The notes beneath the pieces were generated by a model. That model saw only the letters and a list, made by a program, of their open reading frames with translations. It ran no database searches and was not told where the DNA came from. From a virus, in the IMG/VR virus record IMGVR_UViG_3300042465_004842, positions 1-60,955 of that record: a stretch of 60,955 nucleotides of DNA. One strand, given 5' to 3'. The position numbers and the translations under genes are program-made. Shown in pieces: positions 24,149-60,955 of this stretch; within the stretch, counting starts at the first letter, position 1; the number at the start of each line of letters is the position of its first letter.

Positions 24149-24423
24149 TACTTCTTCCCCTTCACTACAAAATTATCAATCGGGTACACCCGTCTCTCCC
24201 CATCCTCATACTTCACATGTATCTTTTCGTTTATATACGCCCAGCAACCGTGGTACACGGTCCCATTAGGCAGCATTGAATACATCGCTTTCAAGCCATC
24301 ACAACTCGCTGTCAGGTATGTCGTTAAAACAATCTCGCCACCCCCTTCGTTCTTGGCAGACAAGTACGGCTCTGCGCGGACCGCGGAAGCAACAAAAAGT
24401 AATGCCAGTGCTAATTTTTTCAT
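24148..24423 (-). CDS. Secreted/periplasmic small protein with signal peptide
   Basis: 91 residues. KKLALALLFVASAVRAEP is a typical Sec signal peptide with an AxA-like cleavage site after residue 17 (VRA/EP). The mature part of about 74 residues contains two Cys (SCDG and HGCWAY) that could form a disulfide in the periplasm. The C-terminal motif RRVYPIDNFVVKG is hydrophilic. Coupled by overlaps to genes on both sides. An exported phage protein could act in superinfection exclusion or lysis timing; this is inference from location only. Confidence 0.72.
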   Translation of the reverse strand: MKKLALALLFVASAVRAEPYLSAKNEGGGEIVLTTYLTASCDGLKAMYSMLPNGTVYHGCWAYINEKIHVKYEDGERRVYPIDNFVVKGKK

Positions 24424-24659
24424 ACGTCCTCCCTTGCAAATTGTCGTATCTCTTCAATGGACAGCCCTGTTTTGTCGTAGATCCGAAGAATGTTTGTAGG
24501 TGACAGATAAAAATGATCGTTTCTGATCTGACTGATTATCGATGTGCTTATGTACAAGTAGTCCGCCAGCTCTTGGTCATTAACAAATTTGTTCTTCTCC
24601 ATCAAAAGTTTAAATAGTTTTTTTTCTTTCTTCACGTGCCTGCTTTTATTGTTTGACAC
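24420..24659 (-). CDS. Helix-turn-helix DNA-binding protein (Cro/XRE-like)
   Basis: 79 residues from a GTG start at 24659, which has AAAGGAG at six bases; an ATG at 24677 without a good site is the alternative. NDQELADYLYISTSIISQIR (about 32-51) is a classic helix-turn-helix with the recognition helix in STSIISQIRND. The ILRIYDKTGLSIEEIR tail is typical of small XRE proteins. Probably a repressor or activator of a phage promoter. A second such gene lies at 29638-29883 in the same operon. Confidence 0.75.
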   Translation of the reverse strand: MSNNKSRHVKKEKKLFKLLMEKNKFVNDQELADYLYISTSIISQIRNDHFYLSPTNILRIYDKTGLSIEEIRQFAREDV

Positions 24660-29441: not shown

Positions 29442-29641
29442 CAAATCCTCCGCTGACACATGAACGCCTGCTGCTCTACGCGGAACGCGCCTGCATACTT
29501 GCAGTCCCCAATGACACGGCTTTCAGTCTGCACCTGACCAATAGCCATACCAATAAAGAACATCAACACCGCTGCGAGGGACTTGGCCCATACGTTATTG
29601 ATCCACGTAAGTACCTTCCTGTAATCAAACGTATCTATCAT
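29441..29641 (-). CDS. Single-pass membrane protein, 66 residues
   Basis: A hydrophobic helix (SLAAVLMFFIGMAIGQV, about 21-37) follows a short N-terminal basic/aromatic segment, with a C-terminal tail containing two Cys (GDCKYAG and FMCQRRI). The ATG at 29641 has GGAGG and an ATGA overlap. The topology resembles small inner-membrane phage proteins, including i-spanin-like ones, but the tail lacks a coiled coil. Function unknown. Confidence 0.65.
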   Translation of the reverse strand: MIDTFDYRKVLTWINNVWAKSLAAVLMFFIGMAIGQVQTESRVIGDCKYAGAFRVEQQAFMCQRRI

Positions 29642-29883
29642 TTCTTGCCTCCCGCACAAAGGAACTCAATACGGGCTATAGGCCAGTTCGTCGCCTTGTG
29701 GATAGCGATAATCCACTCGGCTGGCACACTACTGCCACCTTTCTTACGTAGCTTAGAAATGCCGCTGGGCAATACCCCAAGGATCTTCGACAACTCCCTG
29801 TCCGAATCCACCTTGAAATAGCTTTTGACCGTATCCAACACCACATGTGGGGCCACGCCCCGCTTACCCTGTCCTTTTTTCAT
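29638..29883 (-). CDS. Cro/CI-type helix-turn-helix protein
   Basis: 81 residues. SDRELSKILGVLPSGISKLR (about 27-46) is a helix-turn-helix with the recognition helix GVLPSGISKLRK, and WIIAIHKATNWPIARIEFL is a typical C-terminal helix of small Cro-like repressors. The N terminus is basic. It is early in the minus-strand operon and is a good candidate for the regulator that binds the operators in this genome. GGAGGAG precedes the ATG. Confidence 0.78.
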   Translation of the reverse strand: MKKGQGKRGVAPHVVLDTVKSYFKVDSDRELSKILGVLPSGISKLRKKGGSSVPAEWIIAIHKATNWPIARIEFLCAGGKK

Positions 29884-33407: not shown

Positions 33408-33472
33408 TGTTCATTGTGCTTGCGGTGATAATCGTTTTAATTGTAATTATTGATTTAGTTGATTATAAATAG
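33407..33472 (+). CDS. Micro membrane peptide, 21 residues
   Basis: FIVLAVIIVLIVIIDLVD is almost entirely hydrophobic, ending YK. The ATG overlaps the preceding stop (TAATG), so ribosomes finishing the upstream gene could start here directly. At this length the call depends on the coupling and the composition. Confidence 0.45.
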   Translation: MFIVLAVIIVLIVIIDLVDYK

Positions 33473-33478
33473 TTTCCT

Positions 33479-33563
33479 AATAGAAAAAATCAATTGTACG
33501 GACTAACGACAATAAACTATTATTAGTCATCGATTCGCCGAATCGATAAAATAGAAAGGATAG
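33479..33563 (+). promoter_or_regulatory. Leader module b: repeated promoter and hairpin
   Basis: AATAGAAAAAATCAATT (33479-33495), TTGTAC (33494-33499), TATTAT (33518-33523), then a stem ATCGATTC/GAATCGAT around GCC (33529-33547) and AGAAAGGATAG (33553-33563). Positions 33479-33545 are repeated almost exactly at 34144-34210. Confidence 0.7.
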
Positions 33564-33567
33564 ATTT

Positions 33568-33744
33568 ATGTGGCAGAAAATTAAACTTGAGCAGGTTGAT
33601 CCTGAAGCCCTTGGAAGGGAAATTTCTCACACATGCAAGTGGGATGGGCAGGCGATAACGGAAGCTTTTATCGCTGCGTTAACTGACGCTAATTTTCACA
33701 CTTTCGCGGAGAAAGTGACCGCATTATGGGAGGCCGAAAAATGA
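33568..33744 (+). CDS. Small protein, 58 residues, unknown function
   Basis: The ATG follows leader b. The protein opens WQKIKLEQVDPEALGREISH and continues with an acidic helical part (AFIAALTDANFHTFAEKV). The stop forms an ATGA overlap with the next gene. No known domain, but the dedicated promoter and ribosome site support a real gene. Confidence 0.65.
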   Translation: MWQKIKLEQVDPEALGREISHTCKWDGQAITEAFIAALTDANFHTFAEKVTALWEAEK

Positions 33745-33950: not shown

Positions 33951-34138
33951 AAATTGAACTCGACACATTAGACACTGGCGCGACCGTCGTTAATTTTGAG
34001 CATGGCGGTTATTTCATGCTGGAACCAGTAAACGAAGGCACTGGAATTTTTTTAACTGTTATTGACAGTGAGGGGGATGTCTTATTAGAACAGCGCTTTA
34101 ATCTAACGGTTATGCCGTATGACACTATTGAGGATTGA
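33947..34138 (+). CDS. Small acidic beta-rich protein, unknown function
   Basis: 63 residues with ATGA coupling and AAGGATAG ahead of the ATG. Alternating strands (TGATVVNFEHGGYFMLEPVN, GIFLTVIDSEGDVLLEQRF). Strongly acidic. Last gene of the transcription unit that begins with leader b; leader c follows directly. Confidence 0.62.
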   Translation: MKIELDTLDTGATVVNFEHGGYFMLEPVNEGTGIFLTVIDSEGDVLLEQRFNLTVMPYDTIED

Positions 34139-34143
34139 TTCTC

Positions 34144-34237
34144 AATAGAAAAAATCAATTACACAATTTATCGACAATAGACTATTATTAGTCATCGATT
34201 CGCCGAATCGGTAATTTTATAAACCTAGAAAGGATAG
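34144..34237 (+). promoter_or_regulatory. Leader module c: second copy of the repeated promoter
   Basis: AATAGAAAAAATCAATT (34144-34160), TTACAC, TATTAT, CGATTC/GAATCG stem (34196-34210) and CCTAGAAAGGATAG (34224-34237). The 30 bases 34181-34210 are identical to 33516-33545, and both copies keep the same 66-base span from motif start to stem end. Confidence 0.7.
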
Positions 34238-34241
34238 AAAA

Positions 34242-35234
34242 ATGGCTCACATGATAGATGAAACAACCGGACGCGCCGCGATTGCCTACACTGGCACAAC
34301 CCCATGGCATGGCCTCGGACAAGTGTTGACACCTGATTCAACTATTGAGCAGTGGACGCAGGAAGCGGGCCTAGGTTATACAGTGCTTGAAAGCGCCGTT
34401 GAATATTCAACGCCTGCGGTAACAGGGCATCAGGTTTGGCCCGATAGAAAAGTATTGCACCGCTCCGACACCGGCGCTCCGCTTGCTGTAGTTTCAAAGG
34501 ACTATAAAACGGTGCAGCCCGCCGAAGTAATGGGTTTTTTTCAAAAGCTTTTAGATCTCGGCGGTTTTCAGATGGAAACAGCGGGCGCACTGTCGCATGG
34601 TCGACGCGTGTGGGCGCTTGCCAGTGTAGGCGAGGGCGCGGAAGTAGTGGACGGTGACGTAGTGAAGCCTTATTTATTGCTCGGCACTAGTTACGACGGA
34701 ACCATGGCAACCATTGCAAAATTCACAGCGATTCGCGTTGTCTGTAACAATACAATCACGCCTGCAGTCAATAACACTAGCGACGAAATAAACAAGGGTT
34801 ATATAAAATCGGCGGTTCGCGTATTGCATAGCGAGCGGTTCGATGCGGACGCGGTGCGCATGCAATTAGGTATCGTTGCGAATCAATTCGAGCGTTTCAT
34901 GATCGAATCACGCAAGCTTGCACATGTGAATATGTCCTTTAGTGATGCTGACTTATTCGTAAAGGAATTGCTCAAGCCGTACCACACAGGCAAGCTTGAC
35001 ATTGTCGATACGCGGGCATACAAGCGGGTTATTGAATTGTGGCAAGGCCGCTCTATTGGTTCGGATATCCTACGCGCTGCGCATGTGGACGGTTCCCGTT
35101 GGGAAATGCTGAACGCTGTCACGCAACTAGTTGATCATGAGCGCGGGCGCTCGGATAATACCCGCCTCGAGAGCGCGTGGTTTGGCACTGGATCCGCTAT
35201 TAAAAACCGCGCTTTAGAGTTACTGACCGCTTAG
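34242..35234 (+). CDS. DUF932 phage/plasmid-like protein
   Basis: 330 residues. TTPWHGLGQVLTPDSTIEQW and the later VVSKDYKTVQPAEVMGFF, VKPYLLLGTSYDGTMATIAK and FTAIRVVCNNTI are the standard blocks of the DUF932 family found on phages and plasmids. Length is normal. The biochemical function is unknown; an OB-like or nucleic-acid-binding role has been suggested for relatives, which I cannot confirm. It is the largest protein in the accessory block, has its own promoter (leader c) and is followed by a strong terminator. Confidence 0.88.
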   Translation: MAHMIDETTGRAAIAYTGTTPWHGLGQVLTPDSTIEQWTQEAGLGYTVLESAVEYSTPAVTGHQVWPDRKVLHRSDTGAPLAVVSKDYKTVQPAEVMGFFQKLLDLGGFQMETAGALSHGRRVWALASVGEGAEVVDGDVVKPYLLLGTSYDGTMATIAKFTAIRVVCNNTITPAVNNTSDEINKGYIKSAVRVLHSERFDADAVRMQLGIVANQFERFMIESRKLAHVNMSFSDADLFVKELLKPYHTGKLDIVDTRAYKRVIELWQGRSIGSDILRAAHVDGSRWEMLNAVTQLVDHERGRSDNTRLESAWFGTGSAIKNRALELLTA

Positions 35235-35257
35235 TCAGTTAAGTTATGGTCACAAGT

Positions 35258-35289
35258 GCGGGTTTTCCCTCTGGGATTACCCGCTTTTT
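35258..35289 (+). terminator. Rho-independent terminator after the DUF932 gene
   Basis: GCGGGT (35258-35263) pairs with ACCCGC (35279-35284), with an inner TCCC/GGGA stem, and TTTTT follows at 35285-35289. It ends the DUF932 transcript, so the downstream genes need their own promoters. Confidence 0.88.
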
Positions 35290-35391
35290 AGTCAATAATC
35301 GAAATTAATTTTGCATGTGTAAACCTGCCCCGCGGCCCTTGGTGCTCGACGCTTGAAACGTGCGGCGGGCTCGGCGGTGCTCGGCGCGCTG

Positions 35392-35413
35392 CCCGCGGCG
35401 CTTGCGCCGCGGG
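35392..35413. repeat. GC-rich inverted repeat P1 before the 58-residue gene
   Basis: CCCGCGGCGC and GCGCCGCGGG are perfect 10-base arms separated by TT. The stretch upstream (35341-35360, GGTGCTCG ... TTGAAACG) recurs at 35643-35662. The leader motif CCTAAAAAGGATAA follows at 35423. In RNA this is a very stable hairpin placed 30 bases before the start codon. Confidence 0.8.
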
Positions 35414-35442
35414 GATTATTAACCTAAAAAGGATAAAGAAAC

Positions 35443-35619
35443 ATGAAAACAGAGATACGAAAATATGCAGAATGCGCGGCATGGGAGCACTTTTATTCAG
35501 ATGAAGACACCCCTTGGGAACCCTTCGAGCACTACGACGAGGGATGGATTGACGAGCAATGCGACAAGCTTGCCGATTCAATTGAAGCGGCGATGCTCTG
35601 GGCACGAAGCCAGAAATAA
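35443..35619 (+). CDS. Small acidic protein, 58 residues
   Basis: KTEIRKYAECAAWEHFYSDE followed by an acidic Trp-rich part (TPWEPFEHYDEGWIDEQCDK) and a short helix. The ATG follows the leader motif CCTAAAAAGGATAAAG. The acidic, aromatic composition recalls DNA-mimic or anti-restriction proteins, but this is only a resemblance. GC-rich palindromes flank it on both sides. Function unknown. Confidence 0.6.
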   Translation: MKTEIRKYAECAAWEHFYSDEDTPWEPFEHYDEGWIDEQCDKLADSIEAAMLWARSQK

Positions 35620-35623
35620 GTTA

Positions 35624-35645
35624 ACCGCGGCGCTTGCGCCGCGGT
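35624..35645. repeat. GC-rich inverted repeat P2 (copy of P1)
   Basis: ACCGCGGCGC and GCGCCGCGGT around TT, 10-base arms, five bases after the stop of the 58-residue gene. The core CCGCGGCGCTTGCGCCGCGG is identical to that in P1, so the same 20-base palindrome brackets this gene. Confidence 0.82.
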
Positions 35646-35658
35646 GCTCGGAACTTGA

Positions 35659-35680
35659 ACCGCGAACCGCGGTTCGCGGT
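35659..35680. repeat. Perfect 22-bp palindrome P3
   Basis: The half site ACCGCGAACCG followed by its exact reverse complement, no spacer, directly after TTGA (35655-35658). It sits just upstream of the -35 box at 35691, where an activator or repressor would bind. Confidence 0.82.
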
Positions 35681-35690
35681 GAAATAGTGC

Positions 35691-35760
35691 TTGCAATAGT
35701 TTCCAGAAAGCGATAATATTGAATCGTTGGCAGTAGCCAACGATCAACCTAGAAAGGATA
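35691..35760 (+). promoter_or_regulatory. Leader module d: promoter, hairpin, leader motif
   Basis: TTGCAA (35691-35696), 17 bases, TATA-like TAATAT (35714-35719); then a perfect 9-base stem ATCGTTGGC/GCCAACGAT with an AGTA loop (35723-35744); then CCTAGAAAGGATA (35748-35760). The hairpin would form at the very 5' end of the transcript. Confidence 0.78.
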
Positions 35761-35765
35761 ATGTG

Positions 35766-36227
35766 ATGATTGACTTGACATCAAAAGCAATGCTTGCGGC
35801 ATCGATCCGCCATGGTATGTTCGCGAGCCGCGATACAGTTGAAGAGGCGCTCGAGTATGCGAGCGCGACAATTGAGCGCTTATACAATGACGATAAGGCG
35901 GCAATGTATACCGCGCTGCACGTGGTGCTGAATACCATCGCGAATAAGATTACCGCGCTGCCCGATTCGGGCAACCAGTTGCCCGAGCCGCCGCCCGAGG
36001 TTCGGATCGATCATGCTGACTTGCCTGCCACTGGCAATCAACTATTGAACGATAAGATTGCCGATATCGTTGAACAGCTTATCAAATCGCAACTAAATGC
36101 GATTGACCATAAAATCAGAGCGGTTGACGACAGACTAGAAAACTGGTTCGGTAATAATCTAGATATCATTGACGAGCGAATCACTGAGGTGGTTCGCAAT
36201 ATAAGTTTCACTGTCGAAGTTGATTAA
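35766..36227 (+). CDS. Helical protein with C-terminal coiled coil, unknown
   Basis: 153 residues from 35766, set by the leader motif; an upstream in-frame ATG at 35727 would lie in the hairpin. The N-terminal half is compact and helical (DLTSKAMLAASIRHGMFASR). A Pro-rich linker (LPEPPPEV) leads to a coiled coil (KIADIVEQLIKSQLNAIDHK then RLENWFGNNLDIIDERITEV). Self-association is likely. No DNA-binding motif is evident. It has its own promoter (module d). Confidence 0.65.
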   Translation: MIDLTSKAMLAASIRHGMFASRDTVEEALEYASATIERLYNDDKAAMYTALHVVLNTIANKITALPDSGNQLPEPPPEVRIDHADLPATGNQLLNDKIADIVEQLIKSQLNAIDHKIRAVDDRLENWFGNNLDIIDERITEVVRNISFTVEVD

Positions 36228-36232
36228 AATAG

Positions 36233-36305
36233 TTGACAGGGAGCTTGCTCCCTGAGATAATTCCCTTGCTGCATTAATCAATGCAGCATAACCCAGAAAG
36301 GATAG
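36233..36305 (+). promoter_or_regulatory. Leader module e: promoter with palindrome in the spacer
   Basis: TTGACA (36233-36238), 17 bases, GATAAT (36256-36261). The spacer is filled by an inverted repeat CAGGGAGC/GCTCCCTG (36237-36254). A perfect 9-base stem TGCTGCATT/AATGCAGCA with an AATC loop (36267-36288) and CCCAGAAAGGATAG (36292-36305) follow, then the ATG at 36309. Confidence 0.82.
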
Positions 36306-36308
36306 AAA

Positions 36309-36596
36309 ATGTCTAAGACCAAATCAGTTCGCACAGTGACTCTCGGATGGGAAGAGTTCGTCATCCCAACTGGCATGACCGAGGCGCAGGTTATCCTGTT
36401 AGTGGGACAGCTTGCCATGTTGGATAGAATCTCCAGCACTGGCACGAAGGACTATAAGCACAGCTTCTACTATTACAACGATAAGCAAACTGTGAGAGTA
36501 ACGCAGCGCGAAGTGTATGCAGATCAGGCTGCAGCGGCTGCAGCCAAAGAAGCTTACGACGCAGCGCTGCCCGAGCCAGAGACAGCGACCAATTAA
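36309..36596 (+). CDS. Small protein, 95 residues, unknown function
   Basis: VRTVTLGWEEFVIPTGMTEA, then a helix (QVILLVGQLAMLDRI), then YKHSFYYYNDKQTVRVTQRE and an Ala-rich end. A compact alpha/beta domain with an Ala/Glu tail. It has the strongest promoter of the accessory block (module e) and a hairpin terminator-like element right after its stop. No family recognised. Confidence 0.65.
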   Translation: MSKTKSVRTVTLGWEEFVIPTGMTEAQVILLVGQLAMLDRISSTGTKDYKHSFYYYNDKQTVRVTQREVYADQAAAAAAKEAYDAALPEPETATN

Positions 36597-36602
36597 CCTA
36601 GA

Positions 36603-36626
36603 CTATCGGGCCTCGCGGCCCGATAG
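36603..36626 (+). terminator. Perfect hairpin after the 95-residue gene
   Basis: CTATCGGGCC (36603-36612) and GGCCCGATAG (36617-36626) form a 10-base stem with a TCGC tetraloop, followed by ATATTCTTTA. The T run is weak, so termination may be partial or the element may protect the RNA 3' end. Confidence 0.6.
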
Positions 36627-36637
36627 ATATTCTTTAC

Positions 36638-36666
36638 TTGACATTAGCTAGGCCTAGGCCTAGCTA
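36638..36666. promoter_or_regulatory. TTGACA followed by a perfect 22-bp palindrome
   Basis: TTGACA at 36638-36643, then after one base the 22-base palindrome 36645-36666 (half site TAGCTAGGCCT, no spacer). There is no convincing -10 box at 15-18 bases (only TATACC after 21). It shares the TTGACA-palindrome layout with 36233 and 36714. Confidence 0.72.
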
Positions 36667-36713
36667 TACCCGCTCCCCGCCGCCGCCCACTGACACTGTT
36701 GTTAATTTACCAC

Positions 36714-36744
36714 TTGACAAGGCTCAGGGCGCGCCCTGAGCCTT
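36714..36744. promoter_or_regulatory. TTGACA overlapping a perfect 26-bp palindrome
   Basis: TTGACA at 36714-36719; the palindrome 36719-36744 (half site AAGGCTCAGGGCG, no spacer) shares the last A. No -10 box is visible at standard distance. As RNA it would be a very stable hairpin; as DNA it is an ideal dimer site. Confidence 0.75.
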
Positions 36745-36752
36745 AGATCCCT

Positions 36753-36889
36753 TATAGGGGGAGGGCCATAACTGCACCCGTTCTGCTCAGGTCTGCCCTT
36801 CGCTCTGTTTTTGCCAAACAAATACATCTTGGATACTTGGCCCCTCCCCCATAAACAGCCCCCTTCATTTGTAAAACCTGTACGGGGGG
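36753..36889 (+). other. Two GC-rich stem-loops upstream of terL
   Basis: TATAGGGGGAGGGCCA (36753-36768) is nearly complementary to TTGGCCCCTCCCCCATA (36837-36853), enclosing about 70 bases. A second stem pairs ACAGCCCCC (36855-36863) with GGGGGGTGT (36884-36892 region). No open frame is present. Location between the accessory block and the large terminase gene suggests a packaging site or a translational control element. Confidence 0.45.
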
Positions 36890-36905
36890 TGTATATTAAT
36901 AAATT

Positions 36906-38366
36906 ATGAAACCTGAAGACATTGAAGCGGAAAGATTACGCCTCGAGCTGCGGCTCTCGCTCCTCGAAGCGCGAGACAAGGCCACCACTGAGTTCTTAGA
37001 CTTTTGCAAATACGTGTGGCCTGAGATCATTATCGGGGAACACCATCGTCGCATTGCCGCGGCGTTGGATCGTGTTGTCGCGGGCAAATGCAAACGCCTG
37101 ATGATCGCGATGCCCCCGCGCCACGGAAAAAGCCAAATGGGCAGTTATTTATTTCCTGCCTATTTAATGGGGAAGTTGCCACAAAGTAAACTCATTGTTG
37201 GCTCCCACACGGCTGAGTTAGCGCAGCGTTTCGGTAGGATGATTAGGAACCTTGTTGAGGATGAGCGGTACATCGAGTTGTTTCCTGATACCAAGTTGTC
37301 TGTTGACAGCAAGGCTGCCGGACGGTGGAACACGAACCAAGGCGGTGAGGCGTTCTTTATTGGTAAGGGCGGCGCGATGACGGGCCGTGGCGGTGATATT
37401 ATTATTTTGGATGACATCTTGGATGAGCAGGATGCCATATCTGATACCGCTATGGAGAACACGTGGGAATGGTACACATCTGGTCCACGTCAGCGATTGC
37501 AGCCAAACGGTACAATAATTGTTATCAACACTCGGTGGAAGACCGACGATTTATCCGGGCGATTACTTCGCCAGCAGGGACAATTAAAGAGCGACCAGTG
37601 GGAGGTTTTAGAGTTTCCTGCGATCCTCCCGAGCGGCAACCCTTTGTGGCCCGAATATTGGGCGCTTGAGGAGCTTGAAAAAGTCAAGATGTCCATTGGC
37701 TTAAAGAAGTGGAACGCGCAGTGGCAGCAACAGCCTACTAACGATGACGGTGCGATATTAAAGCGCGATTGGTGGCGCAGGTGGCAAAAGGAAGAACCGC
37801 CTAGCTGCAGCTATATCATTCAAACCTACGATACGGCGTACTCCAAAAAGGAGACGGCTGACTTCTCGGTCATCGCAACGTGGGGCGTGTTCCGTCCATC
37901 TGCCGACTCGGGCCCTAATTTAATTTTGTTAGCGGTAAGGAAAGGCCGTTGGGATTTTCCGGAGTTAAAGCGGATTGCCAAGGATGAGTACAGGTATTGG
38001 CAACCGGATAACGTATTGATTGAGGCCAAAGCTACGGGTACTCCGTTGCAGCATGAGATGAGGAAGATGGGTATTCCTGTGACGATGTACTCCCCCGGTG
38101 GTAGGAGGACGGGGCAGGATAAGGTAAGTCGTGCCAATGCGGTCGCTCCCATGCTGGAGTCAGGGATGGTGTGGTATCCGGAGGATGAGGAGTTTGCTCA
38201 GGACTTGGTGGAGGAGTGCGCCGCGTTCCCTAATGGCAGTCACGATGACCAAGTGGATGCAACCATTATGGCTTTAATGCGTTTTAGGCAAGGTAACTTC
38301 ATATCGTTAGAAGATGACGATGATGAGGAGAAAGAGGTTGTGGATACGAGGGTTGAGTATTATTGA
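36906..38366 (+). CDS. terL: Terminase large subunit
   Basis: 486 residues. ATPase: Walker A MPPRHGKS (about 69-76), Walker B DIIILDDILDEQDA. Nuclease (RNase H-like): QTYDTAYSKKETADFSV with the first Asp, NVLIEAKATG with the Glu and HDDQVDATIMAL with the last Asp. All catalytic residues are present. It cuts concatemers and drives DNA into the prohead through the portal. There is no clear ribosome site before the ATG, and GC-rich stem-loops lie just upstream. The gene is separated from the small subunit by the accessory block. Confidence 0.96.
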   Translation: MKPEDIEAERLRLELRLSLLEARDKATTEFLDFCKYVWPEIIIGEHHRRIAAALDRVVAGKCKRLMIAMPPRHGKSQMGSYLFPAYLMGKLPQSKLIVGSHTAELAQRFGRMIRNLVEDERYIELFPDTKLSVDSKAAGRWNTNQGGEAFFIGKGGAMTGRGGDIIILDDILDEQDAISDTAMENTWEWYTSGPRQRLQPNGTIIVINTRWKTDDLSGRLLRQQGQLKSDQWEVLEFPAILPSGNPLWPEYWALEELEKVKMSIGLKKWNAQWQQQPTNDDGAILKRDWWRRWQKEEPPSCSYIIQTYDTAYSKKETADFSVIATWGVFRPSADSGPNLILLAVRKGRWDFPELKRIAKDEYRYWQPDNVLIEAKATGTPLQHEMRKMGIPVTMYSPGGRRTGQDKVSRANAVAPMLESGMVWYPEDEEFAQDLVEECAAFPNGSHDDQVDATIMALMRFRQGNFISLEDDDDEEKEVVDTRVEYY

Positions 38367-44877: not shown

Positions 44878-45010
44878 AAAGCCAAATTTGGTAAAAATGT
44901 CCCAACAACGGACTGTGAAACCTAAAAAGGTTCCACGTGAAACAATTGGAGAGCCTCGTCCTGCCTTTGTTTACAGGAAAGACGCATTTAAAAAAGTAAA
45001 AATTACATAA
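44867..45010 (+). CDS. Small basic protein, 47 residues
   Basis: SNRKPNLVKMSQQRTVKPKK at the N terminus, PRPAFVYRKDAFKKVKIT at the end; about 30 percent Lys or Arg. AAGGGG precedes the ATG, which lies inside the portal gene end. Small basic proteins with R-P-A-F-x-Y-R elements sit near portal genes in related phages. Function unknown. Confidence 0.6.
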   Translation: MSNRKPNLVKMSQQRTVKPKKVPRETIGEPRPAFVYRKDAFKKVKIT

Positions 45011-60239: not shown

Positions 60240-60829
60240 CCGCAGCAAAAACCGCAGCCGCTGCAATACGCAAAGGCTGTGAAATGTATCAGGAGTACAA
60301 AGCGCAAGGGATGGAGCTAGTCGATGCGTACGGACAAGCCAAGGATGTCGTTGCAGATTTATCTGGGCACCTTGGCAATTTCTTTAAGGCGCACGAAACG
60401 CTTGAGAAGCATGTCCACGAAGAAGAGTTAAAGACGAAGAAGGCGCGTGACCCTGAGCTATCTGTAAATCAGGAAGCGTTCAACAGGATACTGGCTCAGA
60501 AAGAAATGATTCGGATGGAAACCGAGTTGCGCGAAATGATGGTGTACCAAGCGCCCAAGGAGTTAGGTGCGATCTGGTCTGAGTTTGAAGTAATGCGCGA
60601 CAGGATTAAAGAGGAACGTGCTGAAGTCCAGCGTCAGGAGTTATATAAGCAGCAGGTGGCTCAATGGCGACGGGCAAGTATAAAAAGAAAAATCGCGGAA
60701 CAGATGACGTCAATACTCGCGGTCGTGTTCATAATATTGTGGTTCCTATGGGTGATGATTCTGATAAGAACGAGCCAAACATACCGTGGAGCTTACTCAT
60801 TACCGTCCTTGTTTTGTGTATTGTGTTAG
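60218..60829 (+). CDS. Membrane protein with helical cytoplasmic domain, TTG start
   Basis: 203 residues, starting at TTG 60218 (DPLTLLAAAKTAAAAIRKGC is the usual N terminus of this phage family), 22 bases inside the previous gene. Long amphipathic helices fill residues 15-160 (ETLEKHVHEEELKTKKARDP, KEMIRMETELREMMVYQAPK). A transmembrane helix near 168-185 (TSILAVVFIILWFLWVMILI) follows. The last 166 bases overlap the next gene in another frame. Next to holin and endolysin genes, so a lysis role (spanin- or antiholin-like) is possible. Confidence 0.72.
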   Translation: MDPLTLLAAAKTAAAAIRKGCEMYQEYKAQGMELVDAYGQAKDVVADLSGHLGNFFKAHETLEKHVHEEELKTKKARDPELSVNQEAFNRILAQKEMIRMETELREMMVYQAPKELGAIWSEFEVMRDRIKEERAEVQRQELYKQQVAQWRRASIKRKIAEQMTSILAVVFIILWFLWVMILIRTSQTYRGAYSLPSLFCVLC

Positions 60830-60955
60830 TCCTAGTGTTGCCGGTTATGGGGGTCGCTTACATGGACATGAACAACGCTACTGCTAGGGCGATGGAAGAA
60901 ACAAGGAAGATGCGTGAATTACGCGCCAAGATACTACTAGAATTGCAGGGGGAAT
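60664..60955 (+). CDS. Small membrane protein, 5' part (gene crosses the join)
   Basis: The frame starts ATG 60664 and runs to the end of the record, continuing at base 1 to a TAA at 127-129: 97 residues in all. The N-terminal 40 residues are hydrophilic and basic (ATGKYKKKNRGTDDVNTRGR). A transmembrane helix follows (SLLITVLVLCIVLVLVLPVM) and then a charged helix. It overlaps the previous gene by 166 bases in a different frame. Both encode membrane proteins, so a common lysis or secretion role is plausible. Confidence 0.75.
   Translation, partial: MATGKYKKKNRGTDDVNTRGRVHNIVVPMGDDSDKNEPNIPWSLLITVLVLCIVLVLVLPVMGVAYMDMNNATARAMEETRKMRELRAKILLELQGE
60829..60955. repeat. Terminal direct repeat, right copy (assembly join)
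   Basis: Identical over all 127 bases to 1-127. Remove one copy to obtain the circular 60,828-bp genome. Confidence 0.93.

Follow-up and report, generated by a model that had tools for sequence, protein, structure and literature searches.

The window analysed here is the whole IMG/VR record IMGVR_UViG_3300042465_004842, 60,955 bases long, and it carries a 127-base direct terminal repeat (1-127 and 60829-60955), which is a sign of a complete genome or of an assembly overlap. A DUF932 gene (34242-35234; Pfam PF06067, E 9e-47) and the large terminase gene (36906-38366) form the left and right borders of a block of small accessory ORFs, the gap between them (35235-36905) being 1,671 bases long; the genes, promoters, terminator and hairpins of this region lie on the + strand. 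Genes A, B and C of this block showed no family match, gene B being without a match in PHROG or Pfam. The Rfam scan gave no family match in the window at the gathering threshold or in the block at E ≤ 1, and megablast of the DNA found no named-phage match.

An intrinsic terminator (35256-35289, d-score 4.1) follows the DUF932 gene and is the only site in the window with a positive d-score, even though the stems of the other hairpins are strong. On its 3' side, a GC-rich stretch with GGTGCTCGG repeats (35320-35412) is seen, and the relatives are GC-rich there too. Gene A (58 aa, 35443-35619) is preceded by the hairpin CCCGCGGCGCTTGCGCCGCGGG (35392-35413), with a clear promoter absent upstream, and the hairpin ACCGCGGCGCTTGCGCCGCGGT (35624-35645) lies directly 3' of its stop; both have 10-bp arms around a TT centre and contain the identical 20-mer CCGCGGCGCTTGCGCCGCGG. 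The perfect 22-base palindrome ACCGCGAACCGCGGTTCGCGGT (35659-35680) is followed by promoter B (35691-35719), assigned by eye as TTGCAA-17-TAATAT or, with a spacer of 15, GATAAT. The 5' leader hairpin of gene B (35723-35744) consists of ATCGTTGGC, AGTA and GCCAACGAT, followed by CAACCTAGAAAGGATA, and the gene itself encodes a 153-aa accessory protein (35766-36227). Ten nucleotides past its stop, the palindrome CAGGGAGCTTGCTCCCTG (36237-36254) fills the spacer of promoter C (36233-36261), which reads TTGACA-17-GATAAT with a TG before the -10 and agrees with the consensus at 11 of 12 positions. The leader hairpin of gene C (36267-36288; TGCTGCATT, AATC, AATGCAGCA) precedes a 95-aa accessory ORF (P0002, 36309-36596), and a 3' hairpin with a T-rich tail (36603-36626; CTATCGGGCC, TCGC, GGCCCGATAG) comes after it; the outer arms of this hairpin, CTATCGG...CCGATAG, recur in relatives while its inner arms differ. 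Two further perfect palindromes sit within the ORFs, at 35967-35986 in gene B and at 36527-36545 in gene C.

The last part of the gap contains two TTGACA motifs without a -10 at normal spacing, one at 36638-36643 with a perfect 22-base palindrome at 36645-36666 and one at 36714-36719 with a perfect 26-base palindrome at 36719-36744. A conserved, promoter-like site (TTGTAA-17-TATATT, 36869-36897) precedes the terminase gene. The GGGGGAGGGCCAT element, at about 36757-36772 and ~140 nt 5' of the terminase start, is strongly conserved in nearly all relatives and, together with the terminase promoter, may serve in packaging or in the control of late genes.

Hairpins of the same kind also occur to the left of the block. 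The leader hairpin ATCGATTCGCCGAATCGAT (33529-33547) stands before a ribosome site at 33553 and a 58-aa ORF (33568-33744), and a second copy of it (34194-34212) lies 5' of the DUF932 gene, in an 81-nt unit (34134-34214) that is 84% identical to 33469-33549. The second copy contains one wobble T-G pair, which suggests that it is kept as an RNA hairpin rather than as a DNA palindrome.

Perfect palindromes are concentrated in the DUF932-terminase gap

In the gap we counted 11 non-overlapping perfect inverted repeats (arm of at least 8, loop of at most 6), while 200 dinucleotide shuffles gave a mean of 0.14 and a maximum of 2. The remaining 59 kb of the window has 9, at the background of about 7 in whole-genome shuffles. 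A TTGAC followed directly by such a palindrome is found three times, against 0.0 times in 300 shuffles.

A previous sequence-only reading of this DNA had placed five intergenic palindromes at 35392, 35624, 35659, 36645 and 36719 and a shorter sixth in the promoter spacer at 36233, and all of them were found where it had put them. Further hairpins that belong with these had escaped it, at 35723-35744, 36267-36288, 36603-36626 and, as leaders, at 33529-33547 and 34194-34212, so that the hairpins are not confined to 35341-36744. It had also emphasised TTGACA followed by a palindrome; the arrangement exceeds the shuffles, but only the motif at 36233 has a normally spaced -10. The arms mostly differ, as it had described, except for the 20-mer common to 35392 and 35624. 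A single mobile repeat was rejected, here as in that reading, because the repeated part is limited to this core.

One palindrome outside the gap, GTTCCACGTGAAAC (44930-44943), is an exact match to a parS-like, ParB-binding site, for which shuffles give 0.15 with one mismatch allowed. The parS-like palindrome is also present in many relatives (for example L056, L068, L071 and L107): GTTNCACGTGNAAC occurs in 44 of 195 loci, often some 400-500 nt 3' of the terminase gene, and in some cases it lies inside the block, as TGTTTCACGTGAAACA.

The layout is conserved in relatives while its letters change

Scans with the terminase, gene C and DUF932 proteins collected about 160 related loci (labelled L). 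By terminase, the nearest named phages are DSL-LC04, 023Pt_psg01 and the Pelagibacter phages HTVC027P/HTVC023P. The system is also present on one contig, a single case, that had been binned with a Rhodoferax genome, from which the host may be a freshwater betaproteobacterium. The gene content of the block differs between relatives, with small ORFs lacking family matches, and the 77 distinct gap sequences have the same architecture in different letters, as expected from the suggestion in the sequence-only reading that the layout is the constant.

In 63 representatives, the palindrome density was 6.6/kb in the noncoding DNA of the block (71 times shuffled) and 1.67/kb in its coding DNA (18 times shuffled), while the DUF932 gene (0.20/kb) and the terminase gene (0.08/kb) were at background, as is the terminase gene of the window. 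The search of relatives for TTGAC-palindrome arrangements, which the earlier reading had proposed, yielded 29 in the 63 distinct blocks against 8.6 expected from density. That reading had named a lack of excess over shuffles and of conservation as the outcome that would tell against it, and both excess and conservation were found. In the whole genomes of six relatives, the main palindrome-dense stretch is at this gap in four; G002 has a weaker cluster and G001 little clustering.

The TTGACA-palindrome pairs at 36638 and 36714 have counterparts in L010, L017, L022, L027 and L118, where other palindromes follow TTGACA or TTGACT; at the 36714 position, other palindromes follow CTTGACA in L010, L017, L022 and L027. 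In L004, L014 and L032, the TTGAC before the terminase is kept without a perfect palindrome. DSL-LC04, with 64% terminase identity, has only three palindromes near the gap and lacks the ribosome-site module, so that the nearer relatives are the typical carriers of the system. A search for the exact 24-nt string of leader and ribosome site gave 6 viral contigs, of which at least four belong to the same group. In more distant relatives (L140-L142, L132 and DSL-LC04), the palindrome AAAAATTTTTTGCAAATTTTT lies just 5' of the terminase, and a similar one is present in HTVC027P.

Alignment with L087, L003 and L092 revealed that close relatives differ by swaps or insertions of whole promoter-hairpin units or genes. 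Compared with these three loci, gene A and its hairpins form a clean insertion of about 255 nt, with GCGGTGCTCGG repeats at the borders. In L092, the promoter, spacer palindrome and leader hairpin of gene B are replaced en bloc between GAAATA and CAACCTAGAAAGGATAATG, while the ORF start is unchanged; the whole promoter B unit is likewise replaced in L004, L005 and L006. At 35659, L087 shares the outer arms of the palindrome and has its inner arms replaced; the palindrome CCGCGGCGCTTGCGCCGCGG of 35392 and 35624 stands at this position.

Hairpins start at the expected transcript start and fill some promoter spacers

The order within a cassette is a σ70 promoter, a hairpin, the fixed ribosome site AACCTAGAAAGGATAG and the start codon of a short ORF. 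Functional-looking promoters fit the σ70 consensus (TTGACA, 16-19 nt, often TGnTATAAT), and the relatives' blocks contain 51 distinct close promoter matches. The counts cover 137 deduplicated promoters located before the ribosome site in 74 loci. A palindrome with an arm of at least 8 is centred 10-20 nt past the -10 in 58 of the 137 (0 shuffled), in the spacer zone in 16 (0.8 shuffled) and about 60 nt upstream in 12 (0.4 shuffled). Leader hairpins start mostly 4-9 nt past the -10, with 4-7 nt the most frequent distance; transcripts of σ70 promoters begin at this place, so that the hairpins would stand at the transcript start. About a third of the promoters are without a leader hairpin with arms of at least 6.

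When arms of at least 7 are counted, 29 of the 137 promoters (21%) have a palindrome between the -35 and the -10, versus 1.7% with shuffled spacers, and its right arm usually ends at TATAAT. Examples are TTGACA-CTGCCCTCGGGCAGTG-TATAAT in L003, TTGACA-GGGCGCATGCGCCCTG-TATAAT in L005, TTGACT-CGCAGCATTTATGCTGC-GATAAT in L107 and TTGACA-GGGAGCTTGCTCCCTGA-GATAAT in the window, where the spacer palindrome of promoter C is replaced by ACACTGCCCTCGGGCAGTGT in L003 and by ACAGGGCGCATGCGCCCTGT in L005 and L006. An upstream stop codon lies within 40 nt in 18 of 29 promoters with a spacer palindrome and in 22 of 95 without one (Fisher p 2e-4). Only one of the 29 spacer palindromes passes the intrinsic-terminator d-score, so their terminator role is weak; classical intrinsic terminators were rejected as their identity, and most hairpins of the block are not of this type.

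The E. coli case of a palindrome within a σ70 promoter is reportedly a laboratory promoter, while here a natural family with diverse palindromes is found, for which any effect of supercoiling is putative. This precedent (Horwitz and Loeb 1988, as cited in PMC6060812) would fit a DNA-level switch, in which the spacer palindromes would form cruciforms on negatively supercoiled DNA and so turn the promoter off or adjust its strength. The perfect dyad symmetry placed exactly between the -35 and the -10, the free choice of sequence and the lack of a G-U bias in these palindromes (see below) are consistent with such a switch; however, just one promoter in five has a spacer palindrome, many of the arms reach no more than 7-9 bp, and the leader, 3' and coding hairpins would be unexplained. 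We consider this switch very unlikely.

The sequence-only reading had also raised hairpin-dependent, single-stranded promoters used by a virion or phage RNA polymerase; such promoters would be N4-like, a class with a conserved hairpin sequence. The palindromes that follow TTGACA without a -10 at 36638 and 36714 are in line with this idea, but the stems, 8-14 bp long, and the loops have no common sequence, ordinary σ70 consensus elements are present where genes follow, and the strongest hairpin class lies 3' of the -10. On the evidence of the promoter and hairpin sequences, we regard such promoters as extremely unlikely.

Pairing is kept while the arms diverge

At orthologous promoters, the arms differ and are still perfectly paired. 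In comparisons of similar hairpins, stem positions where both partners had changed and pairing was retained outnumber other changes, by 192 to 30 in the leaders, 37 to 12 in the spacers and 788 to 30 before the terminase; the sequences are related, so that these counts are not independent, and the hairpins had been chosen as good stems. Among the positions that are not Watson-Crick pairs, the leaders have 12 G-U and 1 A-C, as an RNA stem would lead one to expect; this bias is absent from the spacer palindromes (1:3) and the pre-terminase palindromes (6:6), 125 of 141 of the latter being perfect. In a second, clustered scan with a stricter threshold, the excess of G-U over A-C was significant in no single class. 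We consider an RNA function to be reasonably supported for the leaders alone, as the bias is confined to them, and the same sequence comparison reasonably supports the view that the pairing of the leaders is conserved rather than their sequence.

The divergence of the arms also bears on the proposal that the palindromes are operators to which dimeric regulators bind, among them perhaps the CI-like helix-turn-helix proteins encoded at 24420-24659 and 29638-29883 (Pfam PF07022, E 9e-5 and 1e-5). The presence of these two proteins, the overlap of palindromes with a promoter and one lineage that repeats TATTGACGCGCGTCAATA over several -35 boxes speak for operators. The half-sites, by contrast, differ within one genome and at orthologous promoters with pairing kept, which rules out one common operator sequence, and the largest palindrome class lies 3' of the -10. 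Operators are thus a very improbable explanation of the set.

Palindromes also occur at fixed positions inside ORFs

The accessory ORFs of the 63 representatives contain 94 palindromes in 56 kb, 18 times the shuffled value. They recur at matching positions of the proteins, with arms that differ (LADMVRE/LADIVRQ/FADIVRD; SGNQLPE versus SSAAALE) and without a G-U bias. This excess within ORFs points to template switching, as a mutational process, or to a DNA-level role as a further cause of the perfection of the palindromes. For the spacer, pre-terminase and coding palindromes, a DNA-level role such as a cruciform or a purely mutational origin may apply. One reading, possible but in our view doubtful, is that the whole block is kept palindromic as such, with short perfect palindromes whose arms change together in promoter spacers, leaders, gene ends and coding stretches. 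The cause would be either local replication or repair in which one arm is rewritten from the other, a natural concerted evolution by template switching, or a DNA-structural function, for instance as recombination hot spots that drive cassette shuffling.

An explanation that dispenses with selection is that, in this fast-evolving block, template switching between inverted-repeat arms during replication makes the palindromes and transfers each change to the opposite arm, so that they stay perfect. The palindromes would then fill only the letters not fixed by the -35, the -10, the ribosome site or codons, which would produce the constant layout. The coding palindromes with other arms at the same protein positions are the strongest argument for such a by-product, and the mostly perfect pre-terminase palindromes with equal numbers of G-U and A-C agree with it. 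Against it stand the G-U bias of the leaders, the far higher frequency of leader hairpins than of spacer palindromes in the same promoters and the link between spacer palindromes and a nearby upstream stop. In the same genomes, palindromes are at or close to background in the flanking genes and in much of the remaining noncoding DNA, so the mutational process would need to be confined to the block. Overall, we judge a pure mutational by-product to be unlikely.

A probable shuffled array of promoter-hairpin cassettes

The explanation that we favour, and that we hold to be somewhat probable, is that the DUF932-terminase block is a PeSL-like shuffled array of small accessory-gene cassettes, in which leader hairpins protect the mRNA and junction hairpins cap it. 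Most cassettes would be their own transcription unit, with a host-type σ70 promoter, an RNA stem-loop at about +1, the fixed ribosome site and a short ORF, and whole promoter-hairpin units are exchanged between constant flanks. The leader stem-loop most likely keeps the triphosphate 5' end base-paired, which would most likely slow RppH/RNase E decay; in E. coli, a 5' hairpin stabilises mRNA and impedes RppH (review PMC3997798). Hairpins 3' of ORFs most likely act as 3' caps for the mRNA of the preceding gene and give the following unit some insulation; in the window we propose this for 35624/35659, the spacer palindrome at 36237 and 36603/36645/36719. To save space, such a hairpin may overlap the next promoter, fill its spacer and end at the -10. 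If pairing alone matters and not the letters, the arms would drift by paired changes. The sequences themselves show the layout, its excess over chance, its conservation, the paired changes and the exchange of modules, and from them we infer promoter activity, the transcript start, mRNA protection and the 3'-end role. Among the three possibilities raised by the sequence-only reading, intergenic RNA hairpins fit best. Several observations point against the cassettes: the low terminator scores of the spacer palindromes, the lack of a G-U bias outside the leaders and of a significant one in the stricter scan, and the third or so of promoters without a leader hairpin. In addition, a promoter is not visible for gene A despite its hairpin, the TTGACA motifs at 36638 and 36714 have no -10, and no UTR or promoter role explains the 18-fold excess of palindromes in ORFs.

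PeSLs (promoter-early stem-loops) reportedly join a strong σ70-like promoter to a stem-loop and lie in a hyperplastic region, in the gaps of its small ORFs; the stem-loop is said to be an effective transcription terminator and the carrier a T4-type myovirus. They are described in T4-type phages (Arbiol et al. 2010; Comeau et al. 2014, as cited in PMC4503421). The block resembles them in its composites of σ70-like promoter and stem-loop, which separate the small ORFs of a region that varies, in a strong σ70-like promoter (promoter C) and in the exchange or insertion of units and genes between close relatives with short constant flanks, as for genes A and B. In contrast, the present carriers are an unrelated phage group of about 60 kb with DSL-LC04 and HTVC023P/HTVC027P as terminase relatives, one hairpin stands at the expected transcript start and often one within the -35/-10 spacer, most stems are without a T-tract and their arms evolve by paired changes, and palindromes also occur within ORFs. 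As the carrier is not a T4-type myovirus, we describe the block as working like PeSLs and do not file it as a member.

The leaders also resemble the 5'-terminal stem-loops of the E. coli ompA and papA mRNAs (Emory 1992; Bouvet and Belasco 1992, as cited in PMC3997798), in that they would begin at or a few nucleotides from the transcript start and lie 5' of the ribosome site; mRNA-stabilising stem-loops of that class begin within about 0-4 nt of the start. The leaders differ in that a modular leader with varying stem letters is common to many unrelated phage ORFs, and its stabilising effect is putative. As far as we found, the promoter-hairpin layout is apparently undescribed in this phage group and is like that reported in T4-type phages.

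PeSL-like cassette shuffling is seen here in freshwater phages that are widespread and have pelagiphages as relatives, and the block provides a large natural set of σ70 promoters whose spacers are palindromic and whose leaders start with a hairpin. If the arms truly evolve in concert even in coding DNA, the block would be a natural system for the origin and upkeep of palindromes.
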